In this document: in pieces, positions 52,643-62,696 of the stretch
How positions within the stretch are numbered: the first letter of the stretch is position 1
How the letters are laid out: the number at the start of each line of letters is the position of its first letter
Assembly: GCA_014650475.1 (NCBI GenBank)
Contig: BMVA01000004.1
Coordinates: forward strand, 248,001-312,000
DNA length: 64,000 bases
DNA from: Streptomyces albogriseolus
Lineage (GTDB): Bacteria; Actinomycetota; Actinomycetes; Streptomycetales; Streptomycetaceae
Reading direction: 5' to 3'
Translations under genes and position numbers: made by a program
Notes under the pieces: model-generated
What the model was told of the DNA's origin: nothing
The model's input: only the letters and a program-made list of their open reading frames with translations
The model's database searches: none

Positions 52643-53362
52643 GTGAGCGACGACCGGACGACACCCGCCCCCGACAGCCCCTTCCGACCCGACCCGGGCG
52701 ACCGCGACGCGGCGCCGCAGTTCGTGCTGCCGCTGGTGGTCCGTATCGAGCGCGGCTCGCCGCCCGCGCGGACGGACGCGCTGGAGACGGCGGCCCGCGC
52801 GGTGCTGGTGATGCTGACCGACGAGCGGTCGGTGGGCGACGGCGCGTGGGCGCGGGCGATGCGCGACTGGCAGGACGCCCGGATCCGCAAGGTGGTGCGG
52901 CGGGCGCGCGGCGCGGAGTGGCGGCGCGCGGAGGCGCTTCCCGGGATCACCGTGACCGGGAAGACGGCCGAGGTGCGGGTCTTCCCGCCGGTGCCGCTGG
53001 ACGGCTGGCCCAAGGACCTGGCCCGGCTCCAGGTGTCCGGCACCGACCTCGACGACCCGGACCCGGTGCCGCCGGCGGACCCCGGCGTGCCTGTGCTCTG
53101 GATGAATCCGGACCTGGAGATGTCGGCCGGCAAGGCGATGGCCCAGGCCGGGCACGGCGCCCAGCTCGCCTGGTGGGAGCTGCCGGACGCGGCTCGCGAG
53201 GCCTGGCACGCGGCCGGTTTCCCGCTCGCCGTGCGCACCGCCGACCCGGCCGGCTGGCCGGCCCTGACCGGAGGCGGCCTGCCGACGGTGCGCGACGCGG
53301 GCTTCACGGAGATCGCCCCCGGCTCGTGCACCGTGGTGGCGGACCACCCCGCGCTGCGCTGA
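52643..53362 (+). CDS. Peptidyl-tRNA hydrolase 2-like (Pth2-type) protein
   Basis: 239 aa. The C-terminal half (about 150-239) has LWMNPDLEMSAGKAMAQAGHGAQLAWWEL, like the Lys/His-containing active region of Pth2 (GKxxAQxxHA). The N-terminal half (about 25-140) is an extra domain of unknown role, with FVLPLVVRIERGSP and WQDARIRKVVRRARG. Bacteria mostly use Pth1, so an actinobacterial Pth2-type protein may act on other acyl-tRNAs or as a binding protein. The GTG at 52643 follows GGGCGG. Divergent from gvpA. Confidence 0.78.
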   Translation: MSDDRTTPAPDSPFRPDPGDRDAAPQFVLPLVVRIERGSPPARTDALETAARAVLVMLTDERSVGDGAWARAMRDWQDARIRKVVRRARGAEWRRAEALPGITVTGKTAEVRVFPPVPLDGWPKDLARLQVSGTDLDDPDPVPPADPGVPVLWMNPDLEMSAGKAMAQAGHGAQLAWWELPDAAREAWHAAGFPLAVRTADPAGWPALTGGGLPTVRDAGFTEIAPGSCTVVADHPALR

Positions 53363-53483
53363 CCCAGGGCGTGCGCGCACGACTCTTGCCGTGTTCATGA
53401 CGGCCGGTGTACCAATGAGGCGCGGAACTTGAATGTTGTTCATGTTTCTTCGCCGGGGGCCGGCCGAGCCTGAGGAGCAGCGT

Positions 53484-55547
53484 ATGACCGCGGAACGTCG
53501 TCCCTTGCGCAGCCGCCGGACCGTCCTGAGGGCGGGCGCCGTCACCGGCCTGGGCCTCGCGGGCGCCCGTCTGGTCGCCCCGGGCGCCGCGGCCGCCGCC
53601 CCGGGAAGCGGCGGCGGGTATCTGGTCGGCCGGGGGATCTCCGACGCCACCGGCGAGGTCGCCGAGGTCGGCATGATGGGGTACGGCCGCTTCGACCAGC
53701 AGGCGGCCGGTCTGCACACCCGGCTGCGGGCGCGGGCGTTCGTCGTGGCCGAGCAGGCGGGCGGGCGCCGTGTGCTGCTGATCGTCGCCGACTCTCCCAT
53801 GATCTTCGAGAGTGTGCACCGGGCGGTGCTGCGGCGGCTGAGGCAGGCGTACGGCGATCTGTACACCGAGCGGAACGTCCTCATCACCGCCACCCACACC
53901 CACGCGGGCCCCGGCGGCTACTCGCACCATCTCCTCTACAACACCACGACGTTCGGTTTCCACCGGGCGACCTTCGAGGCGGTGGCGGACGGCCTGTTCG
54001 AGGCGGCGCGCAACGCGCACGAGGACCTCGCCCCGTCCGAACTGCTCCTCAGCCACGGCACGTTGACCGGCGCGAGCGTCAACCGCTCACGGACCGCCTT
54101 CGACCGCAACCCGAAGGCCGACCGCGACCACTTCCCGGACGGCGTGGACACCCTGACCACCCTGCTGCGGGTGGAGCGGGAGGGCCGCACGGTCGGGGCG
54201 GTCAACTGGTTCCCGGTGCACGGCACCAGCATGTCCGGCGACAACCGTCTGATCAGCGCCGACAACAAGGGCTACGCGGCCTACCACTGGGAGCGCGAGG
54301 TCCACGGAGTGGACTATCTCGCCGACGGCGACCCGGCGTTCGTGTCGGCGTTCGCCCAGACCAACAGCGGCGACATGTCGCCCAATCTGGACCTGGTGCC
54401 GCCCACGACGCCCGCCGACTTCGAGGCCACCCGCACCAGCGGGCTGCGGCAGTACGAGGCGGCCGCGGCGCAGGCGGACAAGCCGGGCGTGCGGCTGTCC
54501 GGGCCGGTCGACTCGCGGCTGGTGTACGTGGACCTCTCCGACGTCACCGTGCGCCCGGAGTTCACCGGTGACGGGAAGACCCACCGCACGTCGAAACCGT
54601 GCGTGGGCGCGGCGATGGCGGCGGGCAGCCTGGAGGACGGGCCCGCCTTCCCCGGCTTCGACGAGGGCGACAACCCCTTCTGGGACGCCATTTCGAACTC
54701 GGTCATCTACACCGTCTCCCCCGAGCTGAAGCAGGCACAGGCGCCGAAGGACGTCTTCGTGCCGATCGGGGAGATGAACCGGATCTACCCGTGGGTGCAG
54801 GAGCGGGTGCCGGTGATGCTGGTGCGCATCGGCGGCCTGTACCTCATCGGCATCCCCGGCGAGGTCACCGTCTGCGCGGGGCTGCGGCTTCGGCGCACGG
54901 TCGCCGGGATCGTCGGCGCGGACCTCGACGACGTGCTGGTCGCCGGGTACAGCAACGCCTACTTCCACTACGTGACCACGCCGGAGGAGTACGACGCCCA
55001 GCAGTACGAGGGCGGCAGCACCCTCTTCGGGCGCTGGCAGCTCCCGGCGCTCCAGCAGACCGCGGCCGAGCTGGCGGTCTCCCTGCGCGACGGCACGGAC
55101 CTGCCGCTCGGGCCCGAGCCGCCGGACCTGACCGGCAAGGCGCTCTCGCTCCAGCCGGGCGTGGTGCTGGACGCGCCGCCCCTGTTCCGGAGGTTCGGCG
55201 ACGTGCTGGTGCCGCCGCGGGAGAACTACCGGGCCGGGGAACGCGTCGAGGTCGTCTTCGCCGGCGCCCACCCGGGCAACGATCTGCACCGTGGCGACAC
55301 GTATCTGCGGATCGAGCGGCGGGACTCCGGCGGCGCGTGGCGCACCGTCGCCGACGACGGCGACTGGGCGACCCGCTTCCACTGGGCCCGCGACGGCATC
55401 GCCGCGTCCAAGGTCACCATCACCTGGGACATCCCCCAGGGCACCCCCTCGGGCACCTACCGCGTCGTCTATCACGGCGACGCGAAGAGCCTGGACGGGA
55501 AGGTCTCGTCGATCGAGGGTGTGTCGACGGCGTTCCAGGTGCGGTGA
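53484..55547 (+). CDS. Neutral ceramidase, Tat-exported
   Basis: 687 aa. Hydrolyses N-acyl bonds of ceramide or related amides outside the cell. Tat signal RSRRTVLRAGAVTGLG, cleaved after AAAAAPG (about residue 38). The catalytic domain has YLVGRGISDATGEVAEVGMMGY, zinc His pair in ATHTHAGPGGYSHH, PVHGTSMSGDN, and the nucleophile region NSGDMSPN with Ser299 corresponding to the essential Ser of GDVSPN in human enzyme. The C-terminal Ig-like domain (about 560-687) is usual. GAGGAG lies before the ATG. Streptomyces lack ceramide, so host or environmental lipids are the likely substrate. Confidence 0.92.
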   Translation: MTAERRPLRSRRTVLRAGAVTGLGLAGARLVAPGAAAAAPGSGGGYLVGRGISDATGEVAEVGMMGYGRFDQQAAGLHTRLRARAFVVAEQAGGRRVLLIVADSPMIFESVHRAVLRRLRQAYGDLYTERNVLITATHTHAGPGGYSHHLLYNTTTFGFHRATFEAVADGLFEAARNAHEDLAPSELLLSHGTLTGASVNRSRTAFDRNPKADRDHFPDGVDTLTTLLRVEREGRTVGAVNWFPVHGTSMSGDNRLISADNKGYAAYHWEREVHGVDYLADGDPAFVSAFAQTNSGDMSPNLDLVPPTTPADFEATRTSGLRQYEAAAAQADKPGVRLSGPVDSRLVYVDLSDVTVRPEFTGDGKTHRTSKPCVGAAMAAGSLEDGPAFPGFDEGDNPFWDAISNSVIYTVSPELKQAQAPKDVFVPIGEMNRIYPWVQERVPVMLVRIGGLYLIGIPGEVTVCAGLRLRRTVAGIVGADLDDVLVAGYSNAYFHYVTTPEEYDAQQYEGGSTLFGRWQLPALQQTAAELAVSLRDGTDLPLGPEPPDLTGKALSLQPGVVLDAPPLFRRFGDVLVPPRENYRAGERVEVVFAGAHPGNDLHRGDTYLRIERRDSGGAWRTVADDGDWATRFHWARDGIAASKVTITWDIPQGTPSGTYRVVYHGDAKSLDGKVSSIEGVSTAFQVR

Positions 55548-56435: not shown

Positions 56436-57749
56436 ATGACGACGGTGCGGCTGGGGACCGGGATCGGGTGGCGTCCGGAGATCGCGGACGCGGTGGAGGC
56501 CATGCCGGGCATCGACTGGGTCGAGGTGGTGGCGGAGAACGTCTGCCCCGGACATCTGCCCGCGTCGCTGACGCGGCTGCGCGAGCGCGGCGTGACCGTC
56601 GTGCCGCACGGCGTCTCCCTGGGGCTCGGCGGGGCCGCACGCCCCGACGAGCGGCGGCTCACCGCGCTCGCCGAGCGGGCCGCGGCGCTCGGATCGCCCC
56701 TGGTCACCGAGCACATCGCGTTCGTGCGGGCGGGCGGTCCGCTGACCGCGTCCCCCGGCATCGAGGCCGGGCACCTGCTGCCGGTGCCGCGCACCCGCGA
56801 CGCCCTCGACGTGCTGTGCGAGAACGTCCGCATCGCCCAGGACGCGCTTCCGGTGCCGCTCGCCGTGGAGAACATCGCCGCGCTGTTCTCCTGGCCCGGC
56901 GAGGAGATGACCGAGGGGCAGTTCCTGTACGAGCTGGCCGACCGCACCGGGGTCCGGCTGCTCATCGACGTCGCCAATCTGCACACCAACCACGTCAACC
57001 GCGGCGAGGACCCGGCCAAGGCGCTCGCCGAACTGCCCCTGGAGGCCCTCGCGTACGTCCATGTCGCGGGCGGGTTCGAGCGGGACGGCGTCTGGCACGA
57101 CAGCCACGCCCACCCGGTGCCGCGTCCGGTGCTGGACATCCTCACGGACCTCGCCTCCCGGGTGTCGCCCCCGGGCGTGCTGCTGGAGCGGGACGAGAAC
57201 TTCCCGCCCCCGGCGGAGCTGGAGCGCGAACTGGGCGCGGTCCGCGGGGCGGTGGAGGCGGGCGCCCGGGCCCGCGGGACGGCCCCGGCTCCGGAGCGGG
57301 TACGGGAGCCGGTCGCCGTGGAGGCCGCCCCCGGGGCCACCCGGGAACGGCTGGCGCTCGCACAGACCGCGGTGCTGTCGTCGCTGGTCGCGGGGACGCC
57401 GGTGCCGGAGGGGTTCGACCGGACGCGGATGCGGGTGCAGGCGCGGGCGCTGGCCGCCAAGCGGGCGGACGTCGTGGCGAAGGTGGCCCCCGAGCTGCCG
57501 GAGATCCTCGGCGACGCCTACCGCCCGGCCTTCCTCGCGTACGCCCAGACCCGCCCGATGACCGGCGGGTACCGGCAGGACGCGATGACCTTCGTGGAGC
57601 AGCTCCTGCGACCCGGCCGCCTCGAGGACCCCCGGACGCGCCGCGATCTGCGCGAGTGGCACCACGACCGCTCGGGCCCCCGCCCCCGGTCCCACCGCCC
57701 GGCGATCCGCCTCGCCCGCGCCACCCGCCGGGCACTGCTGCGCCGCTGA
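56436..57749 (+). CDS. DUF692 (MNIO) multinuclear iron oxidase with SCO6045-like C-terminal domain
   Basis: 437 aa. TIM-barrel MNIO enzyme of the MbnB/TglH family, which oxidises cysteine-containing peptides in RiPP pathways. Likely metal ligands: Glu92-His93 in TEHIAF, Glu in AVENIAAL, Asp178, Asn181, His183 and His186 in [11 protein letters not shown], His209 in HVAGG, Asp222/His224/His226 in WHDSHAHPV, and Glu251 in LLERDENF. Residues about 295-405 form a second helical domain like the C-terminus of S. coelicolor SCO6045, perhaps a substrate-recognition partner fused in cis. GAGGGAGGGG precedes the ATG. No separate precursor peptide ORF is evident; the TIGR04222 gene follows. Confidence 0.88.
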
Positions 57750-57782
57750 CGCCGTCCGGAACGCCCGCCGGGGATGTCTCCC

Positions 57783-57797
57783 GGGAGGTCACCTCCC
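57783..57797. repeat. Inverted repeat between DUF692 and TIGR04222 genes
   Basis: GGGAGGTCACCTCCC: perfect 7-base arms about a single C. Could be an operator or a small hairpin in the 116-bp gap. Confidence 0.5.
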
Positions 57798-57865
57798 CAC
57801 GACGCTGTGTCCGGATCGTGAACAAGGCATGGTGTTCGTGCGACCGTGTCCCTTACAAACAACTC

Positions 57866-58648
57866 ATGTTCTGGGTTCCTCTCCTGCTGTTGGCCTGGGC
57901 GATCGCCGGGATCGCGGGGTTGCGGCTGTGTCGTGCCGCGGTGCGTGAGGCGGCGGCTGCCGGTGACGGTACGGGAGGGCGGCGGGGGCTGACGCTGTAC
58001 GAGGCGGCGTTCCTGTCCGGCGGGCCCGCCCGGGTCGCCGATCTCACGCTCGTCGCGATGGCCCGTCAGCGGCGGCTGCTGCTGGCCCACACCGGCTGGG
58101 CCACCGTCGTCGATCCGCGGGGGCGGGACGACATGGAGCGCACGGTGATAGGGGCGATCGGACCGGAGGGTCAGTCGCCCATAGCTCCGGTGCGGAAGGC
58201 CGCGGCGACCGCGGAGGCGGTGCGCGCGCTGGCGGAACGGCTGGTGCGCGCCGGCCTCGCGGTGCGCGAGGGCGACGGCCGGACCGTCGCCCAGGCGCTG
58301 CGCCGGATGCGGCTCGCGGTGCCGGCCGTGGCCGGTCTCGCCGCCGTGGCGCTGCTCATGCCCGTGCCGTCACCGGTGCCGCGCCCGCTGGTCGCGCTGT
58401 GGTTCGCGCTGCCGCTGGCGTTCACGCTGGGCTGCCTGGTCATCGCCCGCTTCGAACTGAGCCCCGCCTCGCCCTGGGCGTCCCCGGCGGGGCAGCGGCT
58501 GCTGGCCTCCGCGCGCCGGGCGGCGGCCGGGGACACCGACGACGACCGCGCGTACCTCACCTCGGTCGCCGTGCGCGGGGTGCACGCGGTGGGCGAACCG
58601 CAGGTGCGCGCGGCCTTCGCGCACCGGGAGCCGCGCGTGGAGTGGTGA
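57866..58648 (+). CDS. TIGR04222 domain membrane protein
   Basis: 260 aa. N-terminal helix (FWVPLLLLAWAIAGIAGLRL, about 2-21), then the TIGR04222 segment GLTLYEAAFLSGGPARVADLTLVAMARQRRLLLAHTG. Two more helices at about 152-195 (LAVPAVAGLAAVALLMPV, LVALWFALPLAFTLGCLV). From memory, family members often end in a Gly/Ser/Cys-rich tail; this one stops at REPRVEW with no cysteine repeat. It follows the MNIO gene on the same strand by 116 bp, so they probably work together. An in-frame GTG upstream would add VNKAWCSCDRVPYKQL, less likely since no Shine-Dalgarno. Confidence 0.82.
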   Translation: MFWVPLLLLAWAIAGIAGLRLCRAAVREAAAAGDGTGGRRGLTLYEAAFLSGGPARVADLTLVAMARQRRLLLAHTGWATVVDPRGRDDMERTVIGAIGPEGQSPIAPVRKAAATAEAVRALAERLVRAGLAVREGDGRTVAQALRRMRLAVPAVAGLAAVALLMPVPSPVPRPLVALWFALPLAFTLGCLVIARFELSPASPWASPAGQRLLASARRAAAGDTDDDRAYLTSVAVRGVHAVGEPQVRAAFAHREPRVEW

Positions 58649-60343: not shown

Positions 60344-61075
60344 TCAGGCCAGTCCGGCGACCAGGTCGGCGACGTCCTTGCGGCGGCCCGTGAAGAACGG
60401 GACCTCCTCACGGACGTGCATACGGGCCTCCGAGCCGCGCAGGTGACGCATCAGGTCGACGATGCGGTGCAGCTCGTCGGCCTCGAACGCGAGGATCCAC
60501 TCGTAGTCGCCGAGGGAGAACGAGGCGACCGTGTTGGCGCGCACGTCCGGGTAGCCGCGGGCCATCTTGCCGTGGTCCGCGAGCATCCGGCGGCGGTCCT
60601 CGTCGGGCAGCAGGTACCAGTCGTAGGAGCGCACGAACGGGTAGACGCTCACGTAGTCGCGGGGCGTCTCGTCGGCGAGGAACGCCGGGATGTGCGAGCG
60701 GTTGAACTCGGCGGGGCGGTGCAGCGCCATGTTCGACCAGACCGGCTCCAGCGCGCGGCCCAGCCTGGTGCGGCGGAAGAGGTTGTAGGCGTCCTGGAGC
60801 TGGTCGGCGGTCTCGGCGTGCCACCAGATCATAAGGTCGGCGTCCGCGCGCAGGCCCGACAGGTCGTAGGTGCCGCGGATCGTGACGTCCTTGGCGGCGA
60901 GCTGGTCGAACAGCTCCTGGACCTCGTCGGCGTAGCCGGCGCGGTCCTCCGGCAGGACGTCCTTCAGCTTGAACACGGACCACAGGGTGTAGCGGATGAC
61001 CTCGTTGAGGTCCTTGGCCAGCTTGCCCTTGTTGGGGATCCGGTCGGGCGCGGGGGTGGTGGCGTCGTCACTCAT
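60344..61075 (-). CDS. hemQ: Coproheme decarboxylase HemQ (ChdC)
   Basis: 243 aa. Last step of the coproporphyrin-dependent heme pathway: decarboxylates coproheme III to heme b with H2O2. Chlorite-dismutase-like fold with [47 protein letters not shown] (probable axial His), and [12 protein letters not shown]. The catalytic Tyr may be that in RGTYDL. It follows cgoX by five bases with AAGGGAC before the ATG, so the two are one operon. Gram-positive pathway, expected for an actinobacterium. Confidence 0.95.
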
Positions 61076-61080
61076 GTCCC

Positions 61081-62538
61081 TTATTCTCCTGCTCCTCCGT
61101 GAAGGCTTTGCACCGGGTGCGCGGTGAGCTCCTCCACACCGCGCAGGTCACCCTGGATCTGGTCGGCCGCGGCGTACGCGCTCGCGATGCAGGCGGGGAC
61201 GCCGACGCCGTCGTAGGCGGCGCCGCACACGGCCAGCCCGGACAGGCCCGCGAGGTGGGCGCGGACGCGGGCCACGCGCGCGTGGTGGCCGACCGGGTAC
61301 TGCGGCAGGCCGTCGTCCCAGCGGGTCACGCGGGCGGCGACCGGGGCGGCGTCCAGGCCGGTGGCCGCCTTCAGGTCGTGCCGGGACAGCTCCACCAGCT
61401 CGTCGTCGTCGCGGCGCAGGATCTCCGTCTCGCCGTGGCGGCCCACCGAGGTGCGCACGACGGTCAGGTCCGGGTTCTCCTCGGCGATCCAGCCCCACTT
61501 GCGGGAGGCGAACGTGGACGCCTTGATGTCGCGGCCCTCGACGGGTGGCACCAGGAACCCGCTGCCCTCGGGCAGCCGCGCCTCGTCGCGCCGGTAGGCG
61601 AGGGTGATCAGCGCCATCGAGGCGTACTCGACGGCGGACAGCTCGGCGGCGGCGCCCGGCGCCTCGGCGCGCAGCAGGTGGGCGGCGGCCGGAGCGGGCA
61701 CGGCGACGACGACCGCGTCGGCGTGCAGCACCTCGCCGCCGGCGACGAGCCGCCAGCCGTCGCCGGGTTCGCGGCGCAGTTCGGTGACCGGGGTGCCGGT
61801 GAGGATGCGGGCGCCCCGGGAGCGCAGGGAGTCGGCGACCGCGAGCGGCAGGGTGCCCACGCCGCCCGCGACGCCCGTGAAGACGGGCCCGGTCTGCCGG
61901 GCGGCGGCGGTCTTCGCCTGGACGGCGCGGACCGCCTCGGTCAGGGTGGCGTGCGCGCGGGCGGCCTCGAACAGCTGCGGGACGGCCGAGCGCATCGAGA
62001 TGCGGTACGCGTCCCCCGCGTACACCCCGCCGAGCAGCGGCTCCACCAGCCGGTCGACGACCTCCCGCCCGAACCGCTCGGCGACGTACTCGCCGATGGC
62101 GACGTCGTCGCCGATCTCGGTGGGCGGCAGCTCGGCGTCCCGCCCGATCCGGGCGAGGCCCTCGTCGGACAGCACCCCTGCGAGGGCGGCGGCGGTGCCG
62201 GGCACGCCCATGACGTGCCCCTTCGGCATGGGGCGCAGGGCGCCGCGGGTCCACAGCGCGGCGGAGGCGGTGGCGGGCGGCTGGAGCCGGTCGGCCAGTC
62301 CCACCGCGCGGGCGAGTCCGACCGCCTCGGGGCGGCGGGCCAGCAGCGACTCGGCGCCGAGGTCGACGCGGGCGCCCGCGATCTCGCCGGGCAGCAGCTT
62401 GCCGCCGACCCGTTCCGAGGCCTCCAGCACGGTGACCCGCGCCCCGTGCTCCAGCAGCCGGTGCGCGGCCGCCAGCCCGGCGATGCCCGCTCCGACGACG
62501 ACGGCGTGCCGGCCGCCGTCCCTGTGTGATCCGCTCAT
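61081..62538 (-). CDS. cgoX: Coproporphyrinogen III / protoporphyrinogen oxidase CgoX (HemG/HemY type)
   Basis: 485 aa. FAD-dependent oxidase making coproporphyrin III. FAD site [29 protein letters not shown] at the N-terminus, EVADGVGGK-like segment VGGKLLPGE, and C-terminal second FAD site [18 protein letters not shown]. With hemQ next to it the substrate is the copro form. The ATG 62538 (MSGSH) is preferred; a GTG at 62547 would add three residues, and a GGAGG lies just two bases from the ATG, which is tight. Confidence 0.94.
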
Positions 62539-62696
62539 GCCCTCCACCTTCTCAAATGCCGCACGCCGGTCCGCCAGGGCCGTGTGGCCCTGCCGAGTCC
62601 CTACCGTGACCCCATCGCGACCGTACGGCCCGAACGCCCGCCCCCCTCACGGCGTCTGAGGAGCGTCAGCCGTCAGGTCACGAGGGGGAGCCCCGC

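Follow-up and report, generated by a model that had tools for sequence, protein, structure and literature searches.

Described MNIO systems and the Streptomyces albogriseolus locus

Gene clusters that pair an MNIO enzyme (DUF692) with a TIGR04222 protein have been described in Actinomycetota by Antoine et al. 2025 (PMC12452194, cited here and below for parts of the paper). The family consists of iron enzymes that modify Cys residues of small proteins. Such a pair lies in the 64,000-nucleotide stretch of the soil bacterium Streptomyces albogriseolus analyzed here (GenBank assembly GCA_014650475.1, contig BMVA01000004.1, positions 248,001 to 312,000; "the window"). According to those parts of PMC12452194, over 1/4 of TIGR04222 proteins have no C-proximal Cys, many clusters apparently have no partner gene, DUF2063-type proteins are known MNIO partners, and the order peptidyl-tRNA hydrolase-MNIO-TIGR04222 is present in Table 2; precursors were drawn from genes preceding the MNIO gene and partners from genes following it. 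Like those clusters, the window has an MNIO gene next to a TIGR04222 gene, an upstream peptidyl-tRNA hydrolase gene, and no separate partner gene. Unlike them, it has a partner that is apparently fused to the enzyme, a tail-less TIGR04222 paralogue standing alone, and a candidate substrate encoded in trans, a small protein here called P.

A preliminary description of this DNA had proposed the pair as a strong candidate for an undescribed modification system, a claim that is not supported because MNIO-TIGR04222 loci, including those with the upstream hydrolase, are already in PMC12452194. That paper thus covers the pair, the peptidyl-tRNA hydrolase gene upstream of it, and the fact that a tail and a partner are often missing. 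What appears to be new relative to the same parts of that paper is the fusion as an answer to the missing partner, the history from tailed to tail-less neighbor, and P. Literature searches by topic, none of them by sequence, returned no paper on P or the fusion.

Other MNIO systems share parts of this arrangement. TglH-TglI (3-thiaglutamate, Pseudomonas syringae; PDB 8hi7) resembles the window system in fold, in iron-ligand positions, and in having a partner as part of the enzyme (parts of PMC10880893), but its partner is a separate protein and its substrate is a carrier peptide plus one C-terminal Cys. The bufferin BufB-BufC and oxazolin HvfB-HvfC systems also combine an MNIO with a DUF2063 partner and have Cys-containing precursors (PMC12452194). 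Unlike in the window system, these precursors carry Sec signal peptides and are mostly encoded beside the enzyme, and the window enzyme scores far below both family cut-offs (176.4 of 310 bits for BufB and 141.8 of 360 bits for HvfB). No open reading frame (ORF) on either strand of the window passed a Cys-tail filter that asked for 2 or more Cys among the final 45 residues, more than half Gly/Ser/His, and a hydrophobic helix ahead. With an MNIO below the BufB cut-off and no filter-passing ORF, the locus does not classify as a bufferin system. On balance, and with slightly better than even confidence, we favor a reading of these sequences in which the fused enzyme and partner would oxidize Cys residues of membrane-anchored Ser/Gly/Cys tails in trans.

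An MNIO enzyme with a probable fused partner domain

The window MNIO protein matched PF05114 over residues 8-271 (E 1.6e-76). An AlphaFold2 (AF2) model of it, built from 51 sequences with a predicted local distance difference test (pLDDT) score of 90.9, gave as best Foldseek matches TglHI (8hi7_B, 4.5e-15), 3bww (3.0e-14), and MbnB (7dz9_A, 3.1e-11). Residues E145, D178, N181, H209, D222, H224, and E251 align with TglH Glu151, Asp184, Asn187, His216, Asp229, His231, and Glu258, pairs that were counted by hand on the printed TglH alignment and compared with the iron ligands given in parts of PMC10880893. H58 and H93 align with two His residues of 3bww, one in its HG motif and one in its DH motif, which probably correspond to TglH His71 and His107. 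The earlier impression of intact metal ligands is thus borne out, with residues at all nine TglH ligand positions, seven directly and two through 3bww. By profile, fold, and ligand positions, the window enzyme is a member of the MNIO family, and oxidation of a peptide is its predicted activity.

To place this enzyme among its relatives, 121 genomes of the genus were profile searched and 81 MNIO loci were compared, 80 of them fetched and the remaining one the window. All nine ligand positions were invariant in 81 of 81 loci. The profile search and neighborhood comparison suggested in the preliminary description found an MNIO in 114 of the 121 genomes, with a single match in the source genome, and a TIGR04222 protein in 106 (about 20 candidates scored per genome); 11 of the 114 MNIO genomes gave no TIGR04222 match. 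For an enzyme this widespread in the genus, the literature searched contains no proven substrate.

Beyond the catalytic barrel, the AF2 model of residues 299-437 is mostly helical, with helices from 300 to 435. The preliminary description had seen here an extra helical domain, fused at the C terminus where other systems have a separate partner, and relatives with a separate gene agree with this. DUF2063 (PF09836) matched 16 of 52 such C-terminal domains when scanned singly (best E 3.2e-6), the window member not among them, and the next family, Hera_DD, matched 2 of 52. A sequence search of the PDB with the domain had no match (best E 0.43), and PF09836 was of little use across 100 genomes of the phylum, with 3 matches, 1 of them above the cut-off. 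Eight of the 81 genus loci encode the domain on its own, in a gene that follows a short MNIO gene. Among 26 MNIO loci of other genera, it was in a separate ORF behind the MNIO in 16, in the same ORF in 6, and without a match in 4, in one of which (L257) a similar protein was recognized by eye. In a class sample of 197 genomes, MNIO matches occurred in 39, the domain in 37, and both in 36; the 37th genome has a weak domain match with internal stops and no MNIO. Because of the DUF2063 matches, the separate genes elsewhere, the co-occurrence with MNIO, and the known DUF2063-type partners, the C-terminal extension is very probably an MNIO partner that is fused in this lineage. For this lineage, such a fusion would explain how an MNIO-TIGR04222 cluster can function when it has no partner gene, a question left open in the parts of PMC12452194 cited here.

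Other MNIO forms were also seen. Some relatives carry a second type (L004 and L005; PF05114 E ~1e-110), with a Cys-rich protein of ~200 residues in front and a protein judged by eye to be DUF2063-like behind. Weak MNIO matches (E ~1e-12) in frames of 714-717 residues (G068:C1:11607032, G011:C31:46865, and G091:C1:8928467) are perhaps a large fused MNIO.

A candidate substrate encoded in trans

Three possibilities had been offered for the missing substrate: that it is encoded elsewhere, that the TIGR04222 protein is modified at a non-tail Cys, or that the chemistry is not on a RiPP. The first is the best supported. P is a stand-alone protein encoded elsewhere in the genome, and proteins of its type have one transmembrane helix, a SWWAGG motif, and SSCGGG repeats. 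P and a second protein, S, were chosen by their reading frames from matches to a CGG-type tail DNA pattern, of which the source genome has 11 and a reversed control 16. The pattern covers only some codons, and further tail proteins may be present in the genome. Since the scan did not exceed its control, the case for P rests on synteny, tail Cys, a profile, and evidence in cis.

P sits upstream of a DUF2617 gene (PF10936 E 1.8e-59), and DUF2617 is present in 120 of the 121 genomes. Two finders were used to look for P beside DUF2617; they disagree on few genomes, with G066, G070, and G073 coming from the first finder only. A P-like ORF lay beside DUF2617 in 92 of 110 genomes, and 5 of the 18 without one had <600 nucleotides upstream. 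Tail Cys were compared with the second finder alone, which gave at least 3 tail Cys in P in 85 of 87 genomes with MNIO versus 1 of 5 without (Fisher 2.6e-5, uncorrected for kinship) and WW in 81 of 87 versus 1 of 5. MNIO matches were missing in G102, G008, G088, G047, G050, G089, and G105. Of these, G008 offered too little sequence, G088 has no P, and in G047, G050, G089, and G105 the helix and Gly tail of P stay, the repeats are gone, and 1-2 tail Cys are left.

Used on the class sample independently of synteny, a P profile matched all 15 genus members that have an MNIO and left G088, the one without, unmatched. Outside the genus it matched 7 genomes, and in G265 (E 2.2e-7) and G285 (E 2.6e-4) an MNIO lies beside the match. 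The source genome's P had no Pfam or NCBIfam match, and four other P proteins searched in Pfam gave one sub-cut-off match each to GRP and YxzE. By the positive-inside count used for all membrane orientations here, the P tail is predicted inside in 80 of 92 proteins.

Evidence in cis came from named genomes of other genera, which were searched with the MNIO of Nocardioides alkalitolerans, where a P-like gene lies behind the MNIO and a partner-like protein; at least 33 loci were obtained. Among the matches listed, 19 had no TIGR04222 match on the MNIO strand within 3 kb; these belong to Nocardioides, Metallococcus, Williamsia, Tsukamurella, Flexivirga, and one record named Kitasatospora. In 17 of these 19 listed loci there were 25 P-like ORFs on the MNIO strand, one or two in each, and the opposite strand had 0. 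The two loci without any, L411 and L412, are from Nocardioides. The other 14 listed loci are from Streptomyces, Kitasatospora, Streptacidiphilus, Peterkaempfera, and Amycolatopsis, and 13 of them have a tailed TIGR04222 gene beside the MNIO, L427 being without. P-like ORFs also occur between a tailed TIGR04222 gene and the MNIO (L242, one tail Cys) and behind the MNIO (L257). Small membrane-anchored Cys-repeat proteins are MNIO operon partners in several genera, and P acting in trans would therefore be a natural substrate. The cis P-like proteins might overlap "adjamnio-V" of PMC12452194, the very small proteins right behind the MNIO. As a separate matter, the locus of the record named Kitasatospora arboriphila (L417) is very similar to those of Williamsia muralis (L418 and L436), which suggests a possible error in this record or in how it is named.

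Taken together, these comparisons make P the candidate main substrate of the window MNIO, at odds that we would put just above even. Several observations weigh against it. Just 7 of 121 genomes gave no MNIO match; one of them, G102, has an intact P, although this assembly is in 1,420 contigs and the one carrying the MNIO may be missing. On the DUF2617 tree, G047, G050, G089, G105, and G088 represent about two lineages, so the Fisher value overstates the case. Neither finder located P in eight MNIO genomes with 1,500 nucleotides beside DUF2617 (G010, G018, G035, G037, G051, G060, G113, and G120), five of which are split-MNIO genomes with a tailed TIGR04222 protein. P and MNIO are unlinked in the genus, P tails are of low complexity, the scan that first showed P was not above chance (11 versus 16), and any homology of the genus P with the cis P-like proteins is putative. 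Five of the 7 profile matches outside the genus (G157, G239, G243, G286, and G363) are in genomes without an MNIO match; at four of these sites (G157, G239, G243, and G363) there is no Cys-tail ORF, and the fifth is an SSCGGG-type tail protein that reads like the TIGR04222 type (G286:C226:144-311; L401), which speaks against a strict rule of Cys tails only with MNIO. The periplasmic TIGR04222 tails predicted in parts of PMC12452194 also conflict with the positive-inside count. Together with the fate of Cys22 in MNIO-less genomes, described below, G286 slightly weakens the proposal and slightly raises the odds of the TIGR04222 neighbor as substrate.

Apparent loss of the tailed TIGR04222 neighbor

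The MNIO-TIGR04222 pair itself is real, its coordinates hold, and both family profiles are matched; the frequency of both proteins across the genus marks it as more than a chance pairing. The window neighbor matched TIGR04222.1 with E 6.3e-42 (143.8 bits versus a cut-off of 43) and has 3 hydrophobic segments and a C terminus predicted inside. A fold search with its AF2 model (pLDDT 91.8) gave no match (best E 2.1). As had been noticed, it has no Gly/Cys-rich tail; it ends AFAHREPRVEW, its only two Cys are at 22 and 190, none falls in the last 70 residues, and without a Ser/Gly/Cys tail it does not classify as a Cys-tailed putative MNIO substrate. Cys22 and Cys190 are conserved in the family, and the Cys18 of relatives is a Gly in the window protein. 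The source genome has one further, weaker TIGR04222 relative, which lies on this contig at a distance of ~164 kb.

MNIO loci were classed by profile as T, with a tailed TIGR04222 protein (at least 3 tail Cys) near the MNIO, or no-T, without one. The 81 loci divide into 45 T, 30 no-T with enough sequence, 3 cut off by contig ends and entered by hand as no-T (L076, L079, and L093), and 3 kept as unknown class (L132, L140, and L143). In the 45 T loci, the tailed TIGR04222 domain starts 5 to 107 nucleotides past the end of the MNIO match, and in 26 loci the tail-less type stands beside it. In the MNIO phylogeny, all no-T loci except L085 group in a single clade (32 classified, including the window, plus 2 of unknown class); the clade has a Shimodaira-Hasegawa-like approximate likelihood ratio test (SH-aLRT) support of 94, under the tool's starring level of 95. 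Because tailed genes adjoin MNIO in other genera, the tailed neighbor appears to have been lost in one clade rather than gained late.

The tailed proteins share features with P. Of 46 tailed TIGR04222 proteins, 39 have a W[WC][AGSV] motif, W-C-A-G or similar, where P has W-W-A-G or similar; the other 7 all come from six split-MNIO genomes, and five of these genomes are also without P beside DUF2617. The related W[WC]A was found in 0 of 52 tail-less proteins. The C terminus is predicted inside in 42 of 46 tailed and 52 of 52 tail-less proteins.

Alternative substrates and a repurposed enzyme

An alternative, favored by gene adjacency, is that the enzyme modifies the tail-less TIGR04222 neighbor at Cys22 or Cys190, two conserved Cys outside any tail that lie near or within membrane helices. 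Retention of Cys22 is somewhat higher where the tailed protein is gone (26 of 27 tail-less proteins of no-T loci versus 21 of 26 of T loci), and, in a point that also counts against P, Cys22 is kept in the window and missing from the tail-less proteins of both MNIO-less genomes that have one, G047 and G105. Yet these two proteins, which persist without an MNIO match, retain Cys18 and Cys190 (by eye), and the window protein has no Cys18. Cys190 is kept in 25 of 27 no-T versus 25 of 26 T proteins, and Cys conservation is similar overall with a tailed paralogue next door. The 11 MNIO genomes without a TIGR04222 match speak against this substrate too, as do five sufficiently long no-T loci in which no tail-less gene lies 5 kb or less away; of their genomes, G013, G023, and G045 had no TIGR04222 match, G080 a weak one, and G009 one 7.5 kb away. 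Cys in or at membrane helices would also fit an MNIO channel poorly. The non-tail Cys option of the preliminary description is therefore disfavored: the neighbor is probably not the substrate, and modification at its Cys22 or Cys190 seems quite improbable.

The other protein picked from the pattern matches, S, is solitary and TIGR04222-like with a Gly/Cys tail, and could have replaced the lost tailed neighbor as substrate. Strong S matches (E <1e-61) occurred in 17 of 121 genomes, comprising 13 of 33 classified no-T, 0 of 45 T, and four unclassified; S occupies one syntenic place, with a small conserved neighbor in 16 of 17 loci, and has four tail Cys in the source genome and G027. But the association with no-T counts little because the T and no-T classes almost amount to a single division of the tree, and 20 of 33 no-T genomes had no strong match. 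The tail holds 0 Cys in 4 of the 17 S proteins, 1 in 10, 2 in 1, and 4 in 2. S was accordingly rejected as an explanation for the whole no-T clade, and as the replacement substrate it is unlikely. Some S tails are His-rich. The gene beside S in the source genome, presumably a ZIP-like metal transporter, had no counterpart in the other S loci searched with short flanks.

An enzyme that is decaying or repurposed, acting on something other than a Cys-tail protein, such as another residue or a small molecule, would agree with the lack of a Cys-tail gene in cis and with the known MNIO chemistry on Asp, Asn, or Phe (parts of PMC12452194). Against this, constraint persists where the tailed neighbor is gone: the median ratio of nonsynonymous to synonymous substitution rates (dN/dS) between nearest pairs was 0.17 in the 33 no-T loci and 0.21 in the 45 T loci. 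MNIO is under purifying selection in the no-T clade, and therefore the enzyme still has work to do. The ligand positions and partner domain are retained, and the Cys-repeat protein P is found in nearly all examined MNIO genomes of the genus. We consider decay or repurposing to have a low probability, and retain P as the preferred candidate.

Proposed mechanism

In the mechanism we propose, a cytosolic MNIO with its partner fused at the C terminus would act in trans on membrane-anchored Ser/Gly/Cys tails, in this genome mainly on P and more weakly on S. The P tail would lie in the cytosol, as the positive-inside rule suggests, and the fused domain may recognize it through the W-W-A-G motif. By analogy with the family, Cys of the SSCGGG repeats would then be oxidized at the iron center, with a product likely of the thiooxazole or oxazolone/thioamide type. 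The modified tail might bind metal, probably copper, as bufferins and methanobactins suggest. The tail-less neighbor could be an accessory left from the order MNIO-partner-tailed TIGR04222-tail-less TIGR04222, which is seen in relatives and is presumably ancestral.

More broadly, and more tentatively, with chances a little short of even, this could be a near-universal Streptomyces system whose single fused MNIO-partner enzyme acts in trans on several membrane-anchored proteins, encoded at unlinked sites and sharing W-[W/C]-A-G and Ser/Gly/Cys repeats, a housekeeping modification at the membrane with likely metal-binding tails rather than a clustered natural-product pathway. If so, oxidation of Cys by MNIOs would be a general way of modifying membrane-anchored actinobacterial proteins. 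P is a small, testable candidate substrate in Streptomyces that can be cultured in the laboratory, and the P-like genes in MNIO operons of other genera provide an independent system.

Features and neighboring genes

Features of the locus and of the two unlinked tail proteins are collected in Table 1.

Table 1. Coordinates of the MNIO locus, P, and S; positions are those of the window unless a contig is named
Feature	Position	Strand	Description or basis
MNIO ORF	ATG 56436 to stop 57749	+	437 residues; DUF692
MNIO (DUF692, MbnB/TglH/ChrH) catalytic TIM barrel, residues 1-275	56436..57260	+	PF05114, Foldseek, ligand alignment
Interdomain linker, length variable among relatives	57261..57329	+	Alignment and C-terminal parts of 13 loci
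C-terminal helical domain, probable DUF2063-like (PME-type 2-like) MNIO partner, fused	57330..57746	+	Alignment of 52; AF2 helices
Gap where tailed TIGR04222 begins in 45/81 genus loci	57750..57865	+	116 nucleotides; no such gene here
Tail-less TIGR04222 membrane protein (type "t")	ATG 57866 to stop 58648	+	260 residues; TIGR04222.1
P, candidate substrate	Contig C3, ~225079-225315	-	80 residues; one hydrophobic helix, GWWAG, four tail Cys
S, solitary TIGR04222-like protein	G000:C4:141163-141891 (L003/L144 1501-2229)		243 residues; no membrane helices; four tail Cys

In many no-T loci, but not in the window, a protein with a Pro-rich tail (F7; for example, L059 539-1375, L070, and L121) is encoded between the MNIO and the tail-less TIGR04222 gene (class Dt, 17 loci and one cut off). 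We take F7 to be DUF4142-like, and it was rejected as a Cys substrate, with 0 Cys in 10 of 10 printed sequences (every fifth).

Upstream of the MNIO gene, 52643..53362 (+) encodes what we take to be a peptidyl-tRNA hydrolase-like protein, separated from the MNIO in the window by ceramidase and DUF7691 genes. Relatives of this gene (family F5, 59 members) lie upstream of the MNIO in many of the 81 loci. By order and size it fits "adjamnio-II" as given in parts of PMC12452194, and its link to the system is putative. The intervening neutral ceramidase gene (53433-55547; family F49) was seen, among the printed architectures, only in the window and its nearest relative, L089. Downstream, at 60344-62547, are HemQ and protoporphyrinogen oxidase genes. 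Across the 81 MNIO loci, family F2 counts 67 members and family F3 counts 62, so this is a lasting neighborhood.

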